Of a DNA stretch of 64,000 nucleotides, positions 1 through 38,367 are shown in pieces. The translations under genes and the position numbers were made by a program. Source of the DNA: Bacterioplanes sp. (GTDB lineage: Bacteria > Pseudomonadota > Gammaproteobacteria > Pseudomonadales > Oceanobacteraceae); the NCBI GenBank assembly GCA_014859445.1, contig JACUUC010000001.1:1-64000 (forward strand). Reading direction: 5' to 3'. Positions within the stretch are counted from its first letter, which is position 1. Every line of letters begins with the position of its first letter. The notes beneath the pieces were generated by a model that saw only the letters and a program-made list of their open reading frames with translations, ran no database searches and was not told the DNA's origin.

Positions 1-567
1 CCACCGTAGAACCACCCGCACTGTCGAAGCTCATGGTGTACGCGTTGACCGTCCATTGCGCGGTATGCGCGGAGCCATTCAGCGGCATGGTGGCAGGCAC
101 CGGTGGATTCCAACCTTCAAAGGTATAACCTATACGAGTTGGCGCGGTCGGCTCGGTGATATTCGTGCCGAAATCTTGTGTGATATCAGCCACCGTAGAA
201 CCACCCGCACTGTCGAAGCTCATGGTGTACGCGTTGACCGTCCATTGCGCGGTATGCGCGGAGCCATTCAGCGGCATGGTGGCAGGCACCGGTGGATTCC
301 AACCTTCAAAGGTATAACCTATACGAGTTGGCGCGGTCGGCTCGGTGATATTCGTGCCGAAATCTTGTGTGATATCAGCCACCGCAGAACCACCCGCACT
401 GTCAAAACTCAGAGTGTATGCATTCACCATCCACTGAGCAGTATGTGTTTGATTGTTTGCAGGCATAATCGCTGGAATGACAGGACTCCAACCAACAAAA
501 CTGTAGCCAGTTTTAGATGGATTAGCAGGCGCTGTAATTTCAGATCCAAGACCTTGTGTAATAGAAC
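1..567 (-). repeat. Tandem 189-bp coding repeat, three units (two identical, one diverged)
   Basis: Units run 1-189, 190-378 and 379-567. By eye the first two are identical base for base, while the third keeps the frame and motif but differs at many positions. The 189-base period equals 63 codons, so unit loss or gain keeps the reading frame. More units may lie beyond the left edge. Confidence 0.9.
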
Positions 568-1126
568 TTACCGAACTACCTCCATCACTATCAAATGTTA
601 ATGTATATTGAGGGACCGTTGAAAACCCTCTAAAGAAGAAGGTTGTTAAGTTCCCACTCGTAATTTGTATAGTCAATGTCTTAAAGCCTGTGTAGACATT
701 TGAGAGTTCAATGCTTTGTACACCGAGGCCGACCGAAAAAGATTCATTTTGAGGTAAAGGGCTGTTTTGGCTATCCACAGCACTTACAGATATGTTTTGT
801 GCCACTCCGCTTTGGTTATTGAAAATTAACTTGTCAATTGAAAGGCTCGTACTTGTTGAGTTAGCACGTATTTCAAATCTGTTTTGGCCTGGAAATGTCG
901 TGTCAGCACTCAAATCACCGTTGGCATTGGTCACACATGATCTCCAATTACCCGTATGTACGGCGTTAACTCTGACATCAGAGTCGGGCGTTGTACTGCA
1001 TGGATTGCTAGCTAAGTTAGGTGCAAAAAAGTAATCTTGAGCATGAATAGACTCAATAGTTAACAAAGCGAACAGAACAACAAGTAAAACCCGCTTCGTT
1101 TCTTTTTTGAAACTTTCATATGGCAT
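1..1126 (-). CDS. Secreted protein with InlB-type (Listeria-Bacteroides) tandem repeats, 3' part missing
   Basis: The frame opens with ATG at 1126 (AGAGGTG ribosome site about 8 bases upstream) and stays open to the left edge, so the C-terminus is outside the window. The first ~27 residues form a signal peptide: basic MPYESFKKETKR, a hydrophobic core VLLVVLFALL, and a likely cut after SIHA. About 140 residues of unrecognised, probably beta-rich sequence follow. Then come repeats of 63 residues with the pattern YTxxFDSxGGSxVxxITQxxG, a GYxFxGW element and HTAQWxVNA, which fits the InlB B-repeat / Flg_new family (TIGR02543/PF09479). Such repeats occur in secreted or surface proteins of bacteria, often ones that touch other cells or matrix. 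The two most distal units seen are identical in DNA. Export is well supported; the actual job is unknown. Confidence 0.82.
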   Translation of the reverse strand, partial: MPYESFKKETKRVLLVVLFALLTIESIHAQDYFFAPNLASNPCSTTPDSDVRVNAVHTGNWRSCVTNANGDLSADTTFPGQNRFEIRANSTSTSLSIDKLIFNNQSGVAQNISVSAVDSQNSPLPQNESFSVGLGVQSIELSNVYTGFKTLTIQITSGNLTTFFFRGFSTVPQYTLTFDSDGGSSVSSITQGLGSEITAPANPSKTGYSFVGWSPVIPAIMPANNQTHTAQWMVNAYTLSFDSAGGSAVADITQDFGTNITEPTAPTRIGYTFEGWNPPVPATMPLNGSAHTAQWTVNAYTMSFDSAGGSTVADITQDFGTNITEPTAPTRIGYTFEGWNPPVPATMPLNGSAHTAQWTVNAYTMSFDSAGGSTV

Positions 1127-1267
1127 TGTAAAACACCTCTTCTTCAGATTTTTTAATCAGGTACAACCAAAGAGTAGGCTAACAATTTATTTGGGCCACA
1201 TACTGAATGTTGCATTTTCTTGCAGTCGCCGAATACCTCGACTAATTTTTGGCGGAATTACACAGAG

Positions 1268-3142
1268 TTAGCGTTGTTTTGGAATCGTTAATAAAAACTC
1301 ACTGCCGTTAGGCAAAGCTTTATAACGAAGCGTGCCGTGATGCAGTTCTGCAACCTGCTGCACCAAATACAACCCCATACCTAATCCGTGAATATCCGTT
1401 CGGCTTGCGTTGGATGCACGGAAAAACTTGTTGAATAGGTTCGCTTGTTCAGAGGCTGGTATGCCGATGCCGTTGTCTCGGACGGTAAAGCATACCGAGT
1501 CGGTTGTGGTGTTCACCGCTAGCAATACTGGGCCACCGTCAGGTGAGTATTTGATGGCGTTGTCGATCAGGTTTAGCAGCGCTAACGACAGCATTTGTCG
1601 GTGAGCGGTCAACGTCACTTCGTCGCCAGTGAGACGATAACTTAGCGAATGTTTGCTGCTGGGCGTTACCAGCTCCATAAGGTCATTGATGAAAACGTCT
1701 AAGTCGATAATTTCTCGATTCTGTTCACTGGCTTGGCTACTGAGCCGGCTTTCTGCTAAGGCGTTGTCGACCAAGTTGTTCAGTCGCGCTAACGCGTTGT
1801 GCGCGCGTGCGAATCTAGGCTGCAAGTCCTTGTTAAGGTCGCTACGAATCTCGATGTTCGTTAAGGCCGAGCTGAGCACGGCAAGTGGTGTTCTGAGTTC
1901 GTGCGCCATCAGGTCTAAAAAGTGCCTGAGCGCTTGAGTGTGTTTGCGCTCTATAAAGGCTTTTTCTTGCAGCTGTTTAAGCTGAATCAGAATCACCAAA
2001 ACAACAAAAGCCACTTGTAAAAAGGAAGAAATGGACCACAAATTGCTGGTCCAAAAATTGGTTGGTAGCGCACCGACGTTGCGCAACACTTGGAAGAATA
2101 TGGCTAAAATACTTGGCAAAAAGGTAATAATCATCAGTGTTGCTGCTTGAGGCTTTACTCGCAACATACTGATAGCACCGAAAAACAATAAGATGAGTAC
2201 AGAAAGGCTGAGCCACATAAAATAAGGCGCAACGAGAGGATATTGACCAGTAAGGCTGGCCGCAATCACAATGCTAGCCAATACCATGTGCAGCACAAGC
2301 CATTTATATAACGTAGGTTTATGGATGTGCAGCTGCAAATACTGATTCATGAACAACGTCAACGCAATCACGACGGAACCACTCGCCAAGCCAATGACAT
2401 CACCAGAAATCTGCGGAAACTCAGGGTAGAAATACAATTGATCAAAGCCGTTAAGCGTTGCATTGAGAATCGCATACACCAACAGATAGACGCTGCTATA
2501 AACAAAAAGGACATCTCGCGTCCAGAAGGCACTCATTAAACTGATCATTAATGCCATGCTCAGCAAACCAAACAAAACACCAAAGAACAACAATTCATTA
2601 GATTCATCAGCCATGTGCTGCTCGATGGTTTTTAACGCTAAATTCGCCGTCAATGCACTGGTGGATTGAATACGAACCAAAAGAAGGTGATCGCCCTGAC
2701 TGAGAGACAATGGGAATACGCTGTACCTGCTCGGTAAAGGGCGCTGCGAAACGGGTACGTGATCTCCCGCTTGCAGCATGTGCACATCGCCAACTGGATT
2801 TTGATGATACACCTCGACCCGATCGAGAAAGCTTGGCTTGATAATCAATCTACGCTGTTGATCTTGCTGCACAACAAGCTTTATCCAAAGCCAAACATCG
2901 TGGTTGCCGTATCCGAAACTGAGCTTGCCTTGGGCTGGGGTCAGTTTGTCTCGCGTTGTCTGTGTAATCAGTTGCTCTGCTTCGATCGTATTGGCTGGGC
3001 TAACCAGATATAACGCATTATTGAGTAGGCCTATGTTAGCGTCCGTTTTCTCAACGACCGTCTGTGCGTGTAATGAGCTAGCGATGCTCAGCATCGTGGC
3101 TATAATGAAAACGGTTTTAACATAAAGCGAAAAATTGATCAT
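1268..3142 (-). CDS. Membrane sensor histidine kinase with 7TMR-DISM input
   Basis: From ATG at 3142 the protein has 624 residues and begins with a signal peptide (MINFSLYVKTVF... cut near SLHAQ). A periplasmic beta-sandwich of the 7TMR-DISMED2 type follows (about residues 30-165), then roughly seven membrane helices (about 180-385). The cytoplasmic part has the H-box MAHELRTPL, an N-box NLIDNAIKYS, and G-boxes DNGIGIP and GLGMGLYL. This is the usual layout of kinases that sense carbohydrate-like or other small periplasmic ligands, though the ligand is unknown. An in-frame ATG at 3217 is possible, but it would put 25 extra residues ahead of the signal peptide. The gene is head to head with the response regulator, its presumed partner; the two start codons overlap. 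Confidence 0.88.
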   Translation of the reverse strand: MINFSLYVKTVFIIATMLSIASSLHAQTVVEKTDANIGLLNNALYLVSPANTIEAEQLITQTTRDKLTPAQGKLSFGYGNHDVWLWIKLVVQQDQQRRLIIKPSFLDRVEVYHQNPVGDVHMLQAGDHVPVSQRPLPSRYSVFPLSLSQGDHLLLVRIQSTSALTANLALKTIEQHMADESNELLFFGVLFGLLSMALMISLMSAFWTRDVLFVYSSVYLLVYAILNATLNGFDQLYFYPEFPQISGDVIGLASGSVVIALTLFMNQYLQLHIHKPTLYKWLVLHMVLASIVIAASLTGQYPLVAPYFMWLSLSVLILLFFGAISMLRVKPQAATLMIITFLPSILAIFFQVLRNVGALPTNFWTSNLWSISSFLQVAFVVLVILIQLKQLQEKAFIERKHTQALRHFLDLMAHELRTPLAVLSSALTNIEIRSDLNKDLQPRFARAHNALARLNNLVDNALAESRLSSQASEQNREIIDLDVFINDLMELVTPSSKHSLSYRLTGDEVTLTAHRQMLSLALLNLIDNAIKYSPDGGPVLLAVNTTTDSVCFTVRDNGIGIPASEQANLFNKFFRASNASRTDIHGLGMGLYLVQQVAELHHGTLRYKALPNGSEFLLTIPKQR

Positions 3143-3818
3143 GGGCATCGCTAACGTATTGATTACTGAAGATAATGTAGATCTGCAAATCGAATTGACC
3201 GATTTCCTTGAATTCAATGGCTATCCCACACAAGCGGTTGATACCTTGGCAAGCATGAACGAAAAGCTCAGTACTGACCAGTTCGATTTTTTGGTCTTGG
3301 ACTTCGGTCTACCTGACGGCGATGGGCTAGCAGCAATACCGTCTATACGTAAACGCTTTGGCCGTTCATTAGGCATTATCGCTCTGACGGCGAGAGGCCA
3401 ACCCAAAGAACGTGTCGCCGGTTTAGAGGCGGGTGCGGACTACTATTTAGTCAAGCCGACGTATTTACCCGAATTAAAAGCAGTGTTAGAACACCTACAA
3501 TCTTATATTGAAAAACCAACCATTGACTGGGTACTCAATCTTTCTCAGCAACAGTTGATGTCACCCAATGGCCAGCTCACAACTCTGACTGGAACCGAAG
3601 TACTGCTACTGCAAATGCTCTCAAAAAGTGATTCTATGGTGGATCGTGAGCAACTGAGTTCAAGTATTTTCCACGTATCCGTTGGTGATACTCGACGATT
3701 AGACACGTTGGTTTGCCGTCTACGCAATAAGGTAGTTAAGAAAACAGGTTTATCGTTACCATTAACAACTTATCGCAATAAAGGCTACCAGCTAGGCGCC
3801 ATGATGATACAAGAATAA
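3141..3818 (+). CDS. OmpR/PhoB-type response regulator
   Basis: 225 residues from ATG at 3141; a TTG two codons earlier is in frame. Residues 1-115 are a receiver with the acidic pair ED in LITEDN, the phospho-acceptor Asp in LVLDFGLPDGDG, a Thr in ALTARG and a Lys in LVKPTY. Residues ~130-220 are a winged helix of the Trans_reg_C family (TGTEVLLLQML, then RLDTLVCRLRNKV and TYRNKGYQLG). It should act as a DNA-binding regulator phosphorylated by the divergent kinase. Its leader must lie inside the kinase coding sequence, because the starts overlap. Targets are not evident; the secreted repeat protein on the far side of the kinase is one candidate by position only. Confidence 0.9.
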   Translation: MGIANVLITEDNVDLQIELTDFLEFNGYPTQAVDTLASMNEKLSTDQFDFLVLDFGLPDGDGLAAIPSIRKRFGRSLGIIALTARGQPKERVAGLEAGADYYLVKPTYLPELKAVLEHLQSYIEKPTIDWVLNLSQQQLMSPNGQLTTLTGTEVLLLQMLSKSDSMVDREQLSSSIFHVSVGDTRRLDTLVCRLRNKVVKKTGLSLPLTTYRNKGYQLGAMMIQE

Positions 3819-3856
3819 GCGAATAGATGGCCCGATCGCGTAGCCAACACACTGTT

Positions 3857-3885
3857 TAAAAAAGGAGGCCGAAGCCTCCTTTTCT
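3857..3885. terminator. Bidirectional rho-independent terminator
   Basis: The stem AAAGGAGGC (3861-3869) pairs with GCCTCCTTT (3874-3882) around a 4-base loop, with A-rich sequence before and T-rich sequence after. It sits between the convergent response regulator and trpB2 genes and can stop both. Confidence 0.85.
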
Positions 3886-3914
3886 TCATTCTGCCATTGT
3901 TAATTCACCATGAA

Positions 3915-5273
3915 TCACGATTTCACTTTCGGTAAACGCGCCAGTGCGGCATCAATTTCCGATTGCGGGTATTCGTAATCTTCCAACTGATGATTCAAAT
4001 ACTTGTCGTACGACACCATATCAAAATGGCCATGCCCTGACAGATTGAAGAATAACGTTTTCGCTTCACCCGACGCTTTGCAGCGCAGCGCTTCATCAAT
4101 ACAAGCACGAATGGCATGATTTGATTCGGGGGCAGGAATGATGCCTTCGCTACGCGCAAACTGCACCCCCGCCTCAAACGTCGCCACCTGCGGCACAGCC
4201 ACCGCTTCAATCAACTTTTCATGGTACATTTGCGATACCAATTGTGAGGCACCATGGTAGCGCAAACCACCGGCATGGATGCCCGGCGGCATGAAATCGT
4301 GCCCCAAGGTGTATTGCAAGGTCATTGGGGTGTGTCCGGCGGTATCGCCGAAATCGTAGGCATAGTGACCTTTGGTTAACGTGGGGCACGAAGTCGGTTC
4401 AACCGCCACCAAACGCACGGCTTTACCACCTGCGGCGGCATCGGCATAAAACGGGAACGCCACACCGCCAAAGTTAGAGCCACCGCCACAAGGGGCAAAG
4501 ATCATATCGGGATAATCACCGACTAACTCAAACTGTTTTTTTGCTTCCAAACCAATGATGGTTTGATGCAGTAGTACGTGGTTCAACACCGAGCCAAGCG
4601 AGTATTTGGTGTCTTCGCGGCTTGCCGCTTCCTCCACCGCTTCGGAAATCGCGATACCCAACGAACCTTGATTGTTCGGATCTTTCGCCAGAATGGCGCG
4701 ACCGGTTTCGGTCAAGTTCGTCGGGCTGGCCAACACTTCACCACCCCACGTTTGCATCATGGAACGACGGAATGGTTTTTGTTCGTAGCTGACTTTCACC
4801 ATATACACGCGTACGTCAATACCAAACATCTGACCCGCCAACGACAAGGAAGAACCCCACTGACCGGCGCCAGTTTCGGTGGTCAGTCGTTTAATACCGG
4901 CCACCTTGTTGTAATACGCCTGCGCAATGGCAGAATTGAGTTTGTGCGAACCCGCGGCACTGATGCCTTCGTATTTGTAATAAATCTTACACGGCGTACC
5001 CAGCGCCGCTTCTAATCGATGCGCACGAAACATGGGCGCCGGACGCCATTGTTGATAAATTTCTCGTACCGGTTCAGGAATATCAATCCAACGCTGCATC
5101 GACATTTCTTGTTCGATGATGTTGTCCGCAAAAATGGCCTGCATGGCCGAGCCATCAATGGGTAAACCGTCGGGTCCACACGGTGGGGCTGGCGGATTTT
5201 TGAGGTCAGCTGCCACGTTGTACCATTGTTTTGGAATCTCAGATTCGGGCAGCAATATTTTTGTTTGTTTCAT
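3915..5273 (-). CDS. TrpB2-type tryptophan synthase beta chain
   Basis: 452 residues from ATG at 5273 (MKQTKILLPESEIP...), which is how this family usually starts; a TTG at 5300 would add nine residues. It is a fold-type II PLP enzyme. The PLP lysine is in AAGSHKLNSA (about residue 111), the TETGAGQWG segment follows, and the phosphate-binding loop is GGGSNFGG. The length and the extended N-terminal segment mark it as TrpB2 rather than the TrpA-dependent TrpB1. TrpB2 condenses indole with serine to make tryptophan and is thought to salvage indole or work alone. No trpA or other trp gene is nearby. It is probably a single-gene unit closed by the terminator at 3857. Confidence 0.88.
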   Translation of the reverse strand: MKQTKILLPESEIPKQWYNVAADLKNPPAPPCGPDGLPIDGSAMQAIFADNIIEQEMSMQRWIDIPEPVREIYQQWRPAPMFRAHRLEAALGTPCKIYYKYEGISAAGSHKLNSAIAQAYYNKVAGIKRLTTETGAGQWGSSLSLAGQMFGIDVRVYMVKVSYEQKPFRRSMMQTWGGEVLASPTNLTETGRAILAKDPNNQGSLGIAISEAVEEAASREDTKYSLGSVLNHVLLHQTIIGLEAKKQFELVGDYPDMIFAPCGGGSNFGGVAFPFYADAAAGGKAVRLVAVEPTSCPTLTKGHYAYDFGDTAGHTPMTLQYTLGHDFMPPGIHAGGLRYHGASQLVSQMYHEKLIEAVAVPQVATFEAGVQFARSEGIIPAPESNHAIRACIDEALRCKASGEAKTLFFNLSGHGHFDMVSYDKYLNHQLEDYEYPQSEIDAALARLPKVKS

Positions 5274-5381
5274 GCGCAGGTCCAAAAAGTATTTACTCAA
5301 TAAACGCGCAAAAATAAACGAAAGGTCAACGAATTGCCATGATTTAACACAACAATCATCGACCTTTTTGGGTAAATTAGG

Positions 5382-35463: not shown

Positions 35464-36462
35464 TCATGACGGATGGTACTCACTGGAAAACAGTTTAGCG
35501 CGCACTTTTTGACGAAATTCACCGGGGGTTTGTCCCGCCCAACGTTTAAACACACGAATGAAATAGCCCACATCGCTGTAGCCCACCGCTTCGCCGACAT
35601 CCGCCACCGTAATATTCGAGTGCTGCAATAACTCGCGTGCATTGGCGCAGCGTATTTGCTGTACATACTGCCCCAGCGTCTGTCCGGTTACTCGCTTAAA
35701 ACGACGATTCAGCTGACGTTCACTCAAGTCAACCCAGCGCGCCATGTCGCTTAAGCACATAGACTTAGCACTGTGTTGCTGTATCCAAGTTTGTATCATC
35801 GCAACGCGTTCATCGGGGTGCTGTTGACTCTGCTCGTCATAAAAAACACGTTTTTCAAAAGGATGGCGCACCTCCGGTGAGAACTGCTGCTCCACCGCCA
35901 AGGCGATCGCACGACCAAAGTGCAAACCAATGACATGCACCATCAAATCGGCTCCCGAGTTAATACTGGCCGCACACGACAGTCGTCCCGCTTGCGTTAA
36001 CAGGTGCTGTCGTTGCAACTGCACCTTCGGATAGTCTTGCGCAAATTGATCCAAATAATGCCAATGCGTCGTTGCCGGTTTGCCGTTCAGTAATCCCGCT
36101 TCTGCGAGTAAACACACACCGGTACCGATAGCAACCATGCTGGCACCACGCTGATAACACGACTGCAACCAGCGGATCGCATGACTCGCTTGCGCTATTT
36201 GTCGCTTGGGGTTACGCCACAGCGCAGGAATAATAATCAAATCCGTCTGCTCGATGTCCGCCAAGGTACAGCTGGGTCGAATTTGAAATCCACCGAGCAT
36301 GGTTAATGGCGCGATACATTCCGCCGCCACATCCACGCGAAAATGACTGCGAGAATCATGGGCAACCTGCAAGCGAGCGCGACTGGCTTCCAACATCTCT
36401 AGGGGCATGGCAACACTGGAGCTCAGCATGTGATTCAGTGCTAACAGGGTGACGTGTTGCAT
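35464..36462 (-). CDS. GlxA-type AraC-family transcriptional regulator
   Basis: 332 residues; ATG at 36462 has AAGGAGG close upstream. The first ~185 residues are a DJ-1/PfpI (class I amidotransferase-like) domain (VAIGTGVCLLAEAGLLNGKPATTHW). The C-terminal ~100 residues are an AraC double helix-turn-helix: LSERQLNRRFKRVTGQTLGQYV and VGYSDVGYFIRVFKRWAGQTPGEFR. Regulators of this build control catabolic or stress genes in response to small ligands. It is divergent from the fabY-like gene and precedes the DyP gene, either of which could be a target. Confidence 0.9.
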   Translation of the reverse strand: MQHVTLLALNHMLSSSVAMPLEMLEASRARLQVAHDSRSHFRVDVAAECIAPLTMLGGFQIRPSCTLADIEQTDLIIIPALWRNPKRQIAQASHAIRWLQSCYQRGASMVAIGTGVCLLAEAGLLNGKPATTHWHYLDQFAQDYPKVQLQRQHLLTQAGRLSCAASINSGADLMVHVIGLHFGRAIALAVEQQFSPEVRHPFEKRVFYDEQSQQHPDERVAMIQTWIQQHSAKSMCLSDMARWVDLSERQLNRRFKRVTGQTLGQYVQQIRCANARELLQHSNITVADVGEAVGYSDVGYFIRVFKRWAGQTPGEFRQKVRAKLFSSEYHPS

Positions 36463-36624
36463 ATTGCCTCCTTAACGCTATTCACAATAAACGGCACAAG
36501 CACTGTGCGATTCATTCATCGAATCTGTCTTTATTGTTATACCTTATGTCTTTTTCATCCTAAATCCGACCTTGGTATCGCCTCTACAATAGTCACTTTA
36601 CGATATTCGTTATCGAGGTATGTG

Positions 36625-38367
36625 GTGAGAAAATTAGCAGTCATATGTGGATTTGGTGGCATCAATGCCGCAGGACGCAGTTCCGGTTGGCACGCGTTTA
36701 ATCGCGTCGTGTTTGATCAACTATCCTCCGCGGAGCAACAGCAAACCGTGCGTGCGTTAACACAGCTGGCACAGCCGCAAACCGATTTGCGCCACACCAT
36801 CATGGCGGCGGATGAACAGCAAACACGACTCAATGGCAGTTTGATTCGCCAATGGGATAACCAACTCTGGGATGCCAACGCCGTCCCCGTACACGAACCT
36901 TTTACCGATGAACAGGGGCAAGCGTGCTGGCGCTTACGCCACCAGCGCCTGCCTGTACAAAGTGCAGGACAAGCACCCATAGGGTTCACGCCCGAACAAC
37001 ATTACCCACAGCCCACTCAGGCACGCCACCATCCTCGCGGCTTACAAATGGCGCTGTATGCGGCCAGTGATGCCTTAGGTCAATTGGGTTATAACTGGGA
37101 ACATCTGCGTCAACACCTTCGCCCCGATCAAATCGCGGTGTATGCCGGCTCGGCCATGGGGCAACTGGATGCCCAAAGTCATGGCGGTATGTTGCAAGCG
37201 GCATTGCAAGGCAAGCGTACCAGCGCCAAGCAATGTGCATTAGGTTTGGCCGAAATGACCGCGGACTTCATCAATGCCTATGTATTAGGCAATGTCGGCG
37301 CAACCGGCACCATGATGGGGGCCTGTGCGAGCTTTTTGTACAATTTAAAAATCGGTTTGGATGACATTCAATCAGGACGTCGGCGTTTGGTCTTAGTGGG
37401 CAATAGCGAGTCACCGCTGACACCCGAAATTGTGCAAGGCTATCACGCCATGACGGCACTGGCATCGGAAGCGAAATTGCGAGAGCTGGATCAACTCAAC
37501 CCCGATGAGTTACCCAATTGGCGACGCGCCAGCCGCCCTTTTGGTCAAAACTGCGGTTTTACCTTGGGCGAATCGGCGCAGTGTTTCATTCTTTGCGACG
37601 ACGAATTGGCCATCGAGCTGGGCTTAACCATTTACGCCGCCGTTGGCGACGTATTCACTCATGCCGATGGGTTTAAATCGTCCATTGCCAGCCCGGGTAT
37701 TGGTAATTACCTAACGCTGGGTAAGGCCATGGGGGAAGCGCGTCGCTGGCTCGGCGATGATCTGCTTCGTAGCGGCAGTTTTGTCCAAGCCCATGGTAGC
37801 AGTACGCCTCAAAACCGCACCACCGAATCCGAAATTTTAAGCCGCTTAGCGACCACCTTCGGTATTCGTCACTGGCCAATCACCGCCATGAAAGCACACT
37901 TGGGCCATTCCATCAGTGCGGCTTCGGCCGACCAGTTGTTAATGACCTTAGGCAGTTGGCAACAAGGGTGGTTACCGGGCATTACCACCACGGAGGCGTT
38001 AGCCGATGACGTTCATCAACAAAGTCTGCATTTTGCCTTGCAACATCAGCCACTCGACAGTACGACCACCCCTCTTGCGTTCATTAACGCCAAAGGTTTT
38101 GGGGGTAATAATGCATCGGGGTTTGTGATTTCGCCGCAACAAACGGCATTGTGGTTACAGCGCAAATACGGCCGTCAAGGTTGGAGCGAATACCAGCGTA
38201 AACAATCACTCACGTTAGCACAAAGCCAAGCATACGATGAAGCCACCCTCGCAGGACAAACGCAACTGCGTTACCATTTCGCCCACAACGAGCTGCAACC
38301 CGATGATGTCACCCTCTGGGATCACAGCATTGCAATCCGGGGTTGGCAGCAACGGGTATTATTGTGA
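36625..38367 (+). CDS. Beta-ketoacyl-ACP synthase, FabY-like
   Basis: 580 residues from GTG at 36625, with GAGG 7 bases ahead; the open frame runs further upstream but without a ribosome site. The thiolase-fold Cys-His-His triad is seen in GACASFLYN, VQAHGSSTPQNR and KAHLGHSISAAS, with FGGNNASGF near the end. The size and N-terminus (KLAVICGFGGINAAGRSS) fit the FabY branch, which in Pseudomonas starts fatty-acid synthesis from acetyl-CoA and malonyl-ACP in place of FabH. No other fatty-acid gene is nearby. The role as initiator is inferred from the family. Confidence 0.82.
   Translation: MRKLAVICGFGGINAAGRSSGWHAFNRVVFDQLSSAEQQQTVRALTQLAQPQTDLRHTIMAADEQQTRLNGSLIRQWDNQLWDANAVPVHEPFTDEQGQACWRLRHQRLPVQSAGQAPIGFTPEQHYPQPTQARHHPRGLQMALYAASDALGQLGYNWEHLRQHLRPDQIAVYAGSAMGQLDAQSHGGMLQAALQGKRTSAKQCALGLAEMTADFINAYVLGNVGATGTMMGACASFLYNLKIGLDDIQSGRRRLVLVGNSESPLTPEIVQGYHAMTALASEAKLRELDQLNPDELPNWRRASRPFGQNCGFTLGESAQCFILCDDELAIELGLTIYAAVGDVFTHADGFKSSIASPGIGNYLTLGKAMGEARRWLGDDLLRSGSFVQAHGSSTPQNRTTESEILSRLATTFGIRHWPITAMKAHLGHSISAASADQLLMTLGSWQQGWLPGITTTEALADDVHQQSLHFALQHQPLDSTTTPLAFINAKGFGGNNASGFVISPQQTALWLQRKYGRQGWSEYQRKQSLTLAQSQAYDEATLAGQTQLRYHFAHNELQPDDVTLWDHSIAIRGWQQRVLL

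Follow-up and report, generated by a model that had tools for sequence, protein, structure and literature searches.

A divergent sensor kinase and response regulator gene pair with interlocked start codons in Bacterioplanes sp. and related genomes

The genes of a kinase and its regulator usually lie in one operon, which ties their amounts. How might such a pair be expressed when its two genes stand back to back with start-codon bases in common? We asked this of a locus in a 64,000-nucleotide stretch of Bacterioplanes sp. (contig JACUUC010000001.1, positions 1 to 64,000, hereafter the window). A preliminary description had noted that the likeliest ATGs of the two genes share bases, and its coordinates proved exact. 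Read directly, positions 3140-3143 are CATG (C3140, A3141, T3142, G3143), with the regulator ATG at 3141-3143 on the plus strand and the kinase ATG at 3142-3140 on the minus strand. A3141 and T3142 belong to both codons, and the frames are consistent with a 2-base divergent start-codon overlap, that is, two protein genes on opposite strands whose start codons have common bases. Both overlapping frames encode known Pfam families and align with relatives in which the register is the same, and the pair is a genuine divergent pair of two-component genes without intergenic DNA.

The regulator gene (3141..3818, plus strand) encodes an OmpR-family response regulator of 225 aa with a receiver domain (3156-3488, PF00072, 2.6e-19) and a DNA-binding C-terminal domain (3573-3794, PF00486, 7.8e-9); E10, D11, D54 and K105 are invariant in all seven aligned regulators, and the receiver Asp and the output domain expected of a two-component regulator are both present. 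Its frame opens only at 3126 and offers three early starts (TTG 3135, ATG 3141 and TTG 3159). The first receiver strand (ANVLITED) begins three residues past ATG 3141, and a start at TTG 3159 would therefore cut into this strand. A terminator-like hairpin of 10 pairs after the gene (3860..3883, plus strand), the strongest of seven found in 900-4000 against a mean of 3.0 in shuffled sequences, suggests that the regulator mRNA ends here.

The kinase gene (1268..3142, minus strand) encodes a sensor histidine kinase of 624 aa counted from ATG 3142. Using the protein version from ATG 3148 for the Pfam search, we detected the domains 7TMR-DISMED2 (2633-3010, PF07696, 5e-22), 7TMR-DISM_7TM (1991-2593, PF07695, 6.1e-22), HisKA (1736-1930, PF00512, 1.4e-8) and HATPase (1274-1594, PF02518, 1.4e-24). 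The first two both exceed the gathering score, which places the protein among 7TMR-DISM sensor kinases, and it carries the phospho-acceptor His and the ATPase domain of a two-component kinase, the motif HELRTPLA being found in six of the seven aligned kinases and HEFRTPLA in the other (L104). RetS, LadS and SagS are 7TMR-DISM sensor histidine kinases of the hybrid type; the window kinase resembles them in its 7TMR-DISMED2 and 7TM sensor, but unlike them it is a plain HisKA-HATPase kinase beside an OmpR-type regulator. From ATG 3142 it reads MINFSLYVKTVFIIATMLSIASSLHA followed by Q, by eye a complete signal-peptide-like N-terminus (26 aa ending in LHA before the Q; 3065..3142, minus strand), and this stretch is antisense to any regulator mRNA leader. 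The two N-termini thus indirectly support the use of both starts in the cell. By geometry, neither start could shift far downstream, because the signal peptide or the first receiver strand would be cut, and any change in the two common bases would cost at least one gene its canonical start (ATG, GTG or TTG). The escape that remains is a start deeper within the partner gene, one that L103 and L176 (below) may use.

Directly downstream of the kinase, a gene at window 2-1123 (minus strand) that reaches the contig end encodes a protein with a signal-like N-terminus and Listeria-Bacteroides (Flg_new) repeats (PF09479, 2.7e-35); 2.4 copies of a 189-base tandem repeat (95% matches) run to the window start, which is the first base of the contig. 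This protein is a possible target of the kinase/regulator pair. On the other side, convergent with the regulator gene, lies a TrpB-like PLP enzyme (3915-5300, minus strand; NCBIfam PRK12391, TIGR01415). A crude list of 46 long ORFs, from which the kinase/regulator pair drops by its overlap filter, holds seven other divergent neighbours in the window; the gaps of six measure 161-794 bases, while that of the seventh is -9 and looks by eye like the result of an over-extended ORF. There, an AraC/DJ-1-type regulator (35464-36462, minus strand) adjoins a ketoacyl-synthase-like gene (36454-38367, plus strand), the longest ORFs overlapping by 9 bases; this is probably not a second interlock, because the plus-strand start looks over-extended.

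To find relatives we searched genomes with the two proteins and with profiles. Few candidates were scored per genome (13 in the kinase search of 93 genomes, 7 in both order draws and in the class search, 20 in the L103-family profile search and 19 in the Pseudomonas-like family search), so that absence is not firm and orthologs may be missed. At an E-value of 1e-25 the regulator matched in none of 43 genomes of the same family, and in three of 93 genomes searched, the window's own among them; with the kinase at 1e-60, the window's own genome was the only match among 93. An order-wide draw with the regulator at 1e-24 gave matches in 13 of 390 genomes including the window's, and the 12 other loci comprised three divergent kinase/regulator pairs (L102, L103 and L104), seven codirectional pairs, one convergent pair and one locus without a kinase match. 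A profile built from four regulators and run against single families brought in L176, L177 and L178, all from the genus of L103. In the family of L103, 21 of 144 genomes matched this profile at 1e-40, and four of these, one already in the profile, had E-values no higher than 3.4e-87; in the second family 11 of 22 genomes matched at 1e-40, and only the L102 genome, itself in the profile, fell below 1e-50. The 69 loci scored (L114-L182, repeats included) had a codirectional kinase in 56 cases, a divergent one in eight and no kinase match in five; the eight divergent loci represent five distinct junctions (L102, L103, L176, L177 and L178), three places having been fetched twice, and four codirectional places were also counted twice. 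A second order draw with seven regulators at 1e-58 gave three of 389 genomes, all known (L103, L102 and L104). A class-wide search at 1e-36, with a profile broad enough to include general OmpR regulators, matched at least 187 of 369 genomes, the best match outside the order among those listed reaching 2.3e-53 versus 3.4e-87 or lower for zero-spacer loci. The best 80 of 317 relatives in a collection scan were distant regulators with 26-39% identity, and a plasmid search returned at least 5000 records, all below 60% identity (33-35% among the matches listed).

These searches yielded six divergent junctions without a spacer (the window, L102, L103, L176, L177 and L178), spread over three families (f1, f6 and f16). 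The comparison of related genomes that the preliminary description had proposed thus found the overlap in some of them: CATG is present in four of the six (the window, L102, L177 and L178), and the frame register is kept in all six. The sisters L103 and L176 read TATG (L103:3604-3607 and L176:3953-3956), with the regulator ATG intact and ATA where the kinase ATG is expected; in both, further ATG and TTG codons in the kinase frame lie deeper in the regulator. Their kinase would begin at a rare AUA codon or carry a longer N-terminus encoded antisense to the regulator, and the two loci demonstrate that this position can lose its kinase ATG. Because CATG with the same frame register recurs in L102, L177 and L178, and TATG in L103 and L176, the interlock is beyond chance, and its recurrence in other genomes rules out an annotation artefact or an assembly error. 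Regulator identity between the three CATG lineages is 38-44%: the window regulator is 44% identical to that of L102 and 39-42% to the other four, and the L102 regulator is 38-43% identical to those of L103, L176, L177 and L178. The window kinase shares 31-35% identity with those of the five other zero-spacer loci. The N-termini vary on both sides of the site while the junction stays constant, the L102 regulator showing a 2-codon difference and the kinase leaders of the five other loci spanning 20-26 aa (counted from ATA in L103 and L176).

Two further divergent pairs, L104 and L191, have spacers of 72 and 87 bases, taking the likeliest starts; we guess their family to be Pseudomonas-like. A search of that family at 1e-50 matched nine of 148 genomes, of which two were divergent with a spacer, one codirectional, one convergent and five without a kinase match in the 1.5-kb flanks. 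In these last five regulator relatives (L186-L190) the kinase may lie elsewhere in the genome; the divergent-side neighbour of L188, and probably of L186, L189 and L190, resembles by eye a TolC-type outer-membrane factor. With the L186 regulator as query, no plasmid matched at 1e-30.

In a tree of 29 regulators hand-picked from those found, the six zero-spacer loci form one group with moderate support (91/87, below the starred level), divided into the window with L102 (97/92) and the four loci of one genus (99/99), within which L103 and L176 are nested together. A tree of 16 hand-picked kinases also unites these six (97/96), but it joins the window to the genus of four (82/73) instead of to L102 and so disagrees weakly with the regulator tree. 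In the simplest history consistent with these data, the interlock would have arisen a single time and the kinase ATG would have been lost once afterwards. The two genes are adjacent in all six loci, which group together in both trees, and the kinase and the regulator look like partners. For two-component genes, PMC3018481, as excerpted here, gives cis intervals a preponderance of more than 15 to 1 over trans below 200 bases.

The preliminary description held this layout to be unusual for divergent genes, and published counts agree. In the sections of PMC2174442 consulted here, divergent overlaps are strongly under-represented in prokaryotes and the rarest class, with 331 of 14,958 overlaps in 58 species; of the 331 listed in its Tables 2 and 3, 274 are of at least 5 bases, which leaves 57 shorter than 5 bases, about one per genome, and by our own arithmetic its rounded percentages imply that nearly all 57 are in the phase seen here. 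Like these short overlaps of phase 123:213, the window overlap has the first two ATG bases common to both genes; unlike those general counts, it concerns a kinase and a regulator that look like partners and are followed through relatives at 38-44% regulator identity. The portion of PMC2478687 used counts 457 divergent overlaps among 42,055 in 338 genomes and judges 75 of 75 checked divergent overlaps longer than 60 bases to be annotation errors; the window overlap is a 2-base case recurring in independent genomes, outside the length range judged there. Short divergent start overlaps thus appear to be a known rare kind, and in the open-licence literature we recognised no report of a kinase gene whose start codon shares bases with that of its regulator, or of such an overlap being conserved.

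We then looked for expression signals inside the partner genes. The best promoter candidate in the window belongs to the regulator: TATAAT at 3101..3106 (plus strand), a candidate -10 inside the kinase gene, 34 bases before the regulator ATG, which pairs with a weak candidate -35, TAGCGA, at 3079-3084 (plus strand); 17% of synonymous re-codings score as high. A strict promoter scan of 2940-3340 found none, with 0.8 expected, and a promoter matrix applied inside the partner genes showed no clear excess over the synonymous null (12 tests, lowest tail 0.05, for the L102 kinase). Kinase Shine-Dalgarno matches are good in L177 (-7.6, cggggagt) and L178 (-8.4, cgaggagt), 4 bases before the ATG and within regulator codons 3-5, and the L178 regulator scores -8.6 inside the kinase gene; the window scores little (-1.8 for the regulator, -0.2 for the kinase), and none of the scores stands out against the synonymous null (12 tests, lowest tail 0.03, for the L102 regulator). 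Conservation near the junction was compared in five of the possible tests among six pairs, with uncorrected p values. Fourfold sites of the L103/L176 kinases, the closest pair, are conserved at 15/18 in codons 1-40 versus 128/253 in the rest (Fisher p 0.007), and the L103/L178 regulators are identical at 15/22 in codons 1-40 versus 46/112 in the rest (p 0.03); fourfold sites of the L103/L176 regulators show no 5' excess (9/17 vs 40/86, p 0.79), nor does either gene in L103/L177 (p 0.70 and 0.29). Together these values would make for a weak rise in 5' synonymous conservation near the junction; 5' codons are reportedly unusual in general (PMC12725619). A search for an operator found no exact 7-base direct repeat with a period of 10, 11, 12, 21 or 22 at a distance of up to 120 bases from any of the six junctions.

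What the layout itself implies follows from geometry. Since there is no spacer, each gene should be transcribed from a promoter within the 5' coding region of its partner, as the preliminary description had stated for promoters and ribosome sites alike, and whatever leader either mRNA has must fall within the coding sequence of the partner. Unless both mRNAs are leaderless, the promoters then point towards each other while the genes point apart, and the leaders, both ribosome-binding sites included, are complementary and antisense to the partner mRNA. Overlapping opposite mRNAs are therefore expected at the junction; this part of the earlier proposal stands by geometry, the sequence scores for promoters not being clearly above the null. 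The forced mutual exclusion proposed with it is not supported in any strict form, because a two-component pair needs both proteins together, and the promoter scores do not clearly exceed those of synonymous re-codings. We favour instead an interlocked pair with promoters inside the partners and a mild reciprocal damping rather than on/off exclusion, to which we give a probability of about 0.5. Polymerase collision and cutting of the leader duplex by RNase III would each contribute to this damping, which would hold the two mRNAs at low levels with their ratio close to a fixed value, and the regulator might control both promoters. The arrangement of the genes, its presence in related genomes and the families of the two proteins are demonstrated; a regulatory effect of the overlap is the hypothetical part of this explanation.

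Known systems offer partial parallels. In phage 186 the promoters pR and pL stand face to face while their genes diverge, and the polymerases interfere in a lysis/lysogeny switch; the promoters predicted here would likewise converge while the genes diverge, but unlike in that switch both products are needed together. In the excludon, as outlined in the part of PMC7154746 used, neighbouring mRNAs overlap, also at their 5' ends, and may lower each other through RNase III or interference, a likeness that at our locus is one of geometry; the excludon is defined by a long mRNA that represses its partner, whereas the present overlap is known from sequence and may span only tens of bases. The kinase and regulator genes of pqsA-pqsC in Propionibacterium acnes are also transcribed divergently, an arrangement that the authors call unusual, and a potential antisense RNA is reported at that locus (PMC3848588, in excerpt). 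There, unlike here, the kinase gene follows one for a peptide (pqsB), start sites were mapped upstream of pqsB and pqsC, and the excerpted text describes no start codon shared by kinase and regulator.

The damping reading is challenged most by a frozen accident, which fits nearly as well, because the common bases and the N-termini restrict the starts and the kinase ATG is gone from one lineage. The interlock would have arisen once and be hard to undo, because the two starts have bases in common, with both genes expressed independently at a low level and the antisense leaders without effect. We hold this to be quite possible, if somewhat short of even odds. The grouping of all six loci in both trees is what inertia predicts, the TATG lineage, which broke its kinase ATG, implies that the exact interlock is dispensable, and the promoter and Shine-Dalgarno scores are not clearly above the synonymous null. 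Yet divergent genes in general seldom overlap and are disfavoured when they do, as far as the excerpted PMC2174442 goes, and the spacers of L104 and L191, in another family, imply that a spacer is workable for the pair.

A different alternative moves the kinase start. In the window the in-frame starts are TTG 3217, ATG 3148, ATG 3142 and ATG 3094. ATG 3148, absent from the preliminary description, would add a possible two-codon extension (3143..3148, minus strand, MPMINF); from it or from TTG 3217, and similarly in the relatives, the overlap would be 8 or 77 bases rather than 2. In-frame upstream starts do exist in all six loci, and in L103 and L176 an upstream ATG or TTG may serve the kinase, because these have ATA at the site and no charged residue before the hydrophobic part. 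But any such extension reads the strand opposite conserved regulator codons and would therefore be similar between relatives even if untranslated, and the good Shine-Dalgarno matches of L177 and L178 are placed for the CATG start. The overlap phase pairs third positions with third positions and is therefore uninformative; for this reason a wobble-based test of whether the extra overlap in L103 and L176 is translated was dropped. Overall we consider an upstream start improbable. A start downstream at ATG 3094, which the preliminary description had named as what would restore a normal spacer and an ordinary divergent pair, is very improbable: in-frame ATGs past the interlock also occur in L102 and L177, and GTG/TTG codons in L178, but these share no aligned position, in the window only MLSIASSLHA would be kept, a leader deprived of its charged part and of most of its hydrophobic stretch, the charged, hydrophobic leaders of the four CATG loci begin at the interlock (L103 and L176 align there but carry ATA), and even then 46 bases would have to hold two promoters and two leaders.

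Beyond mild reciprocal damping, a stronger possibility is that CATG acts as a governor of kinase-to-regulator dosage, in which convergent promoters and mutually antisense ribosome sites make each mRNA limit the other. We regard this as doubtful; if true, the ratio of sensor to regulator would be set by DNA geometry instead of an operon, and this geometry would have been selected across three families. A back-to-back pair with shared starts kept at about 40% protein identity is a natural test of operon substitutes, and what is at stake is whether antisense leaders and colliding polymerases can replace an operon.
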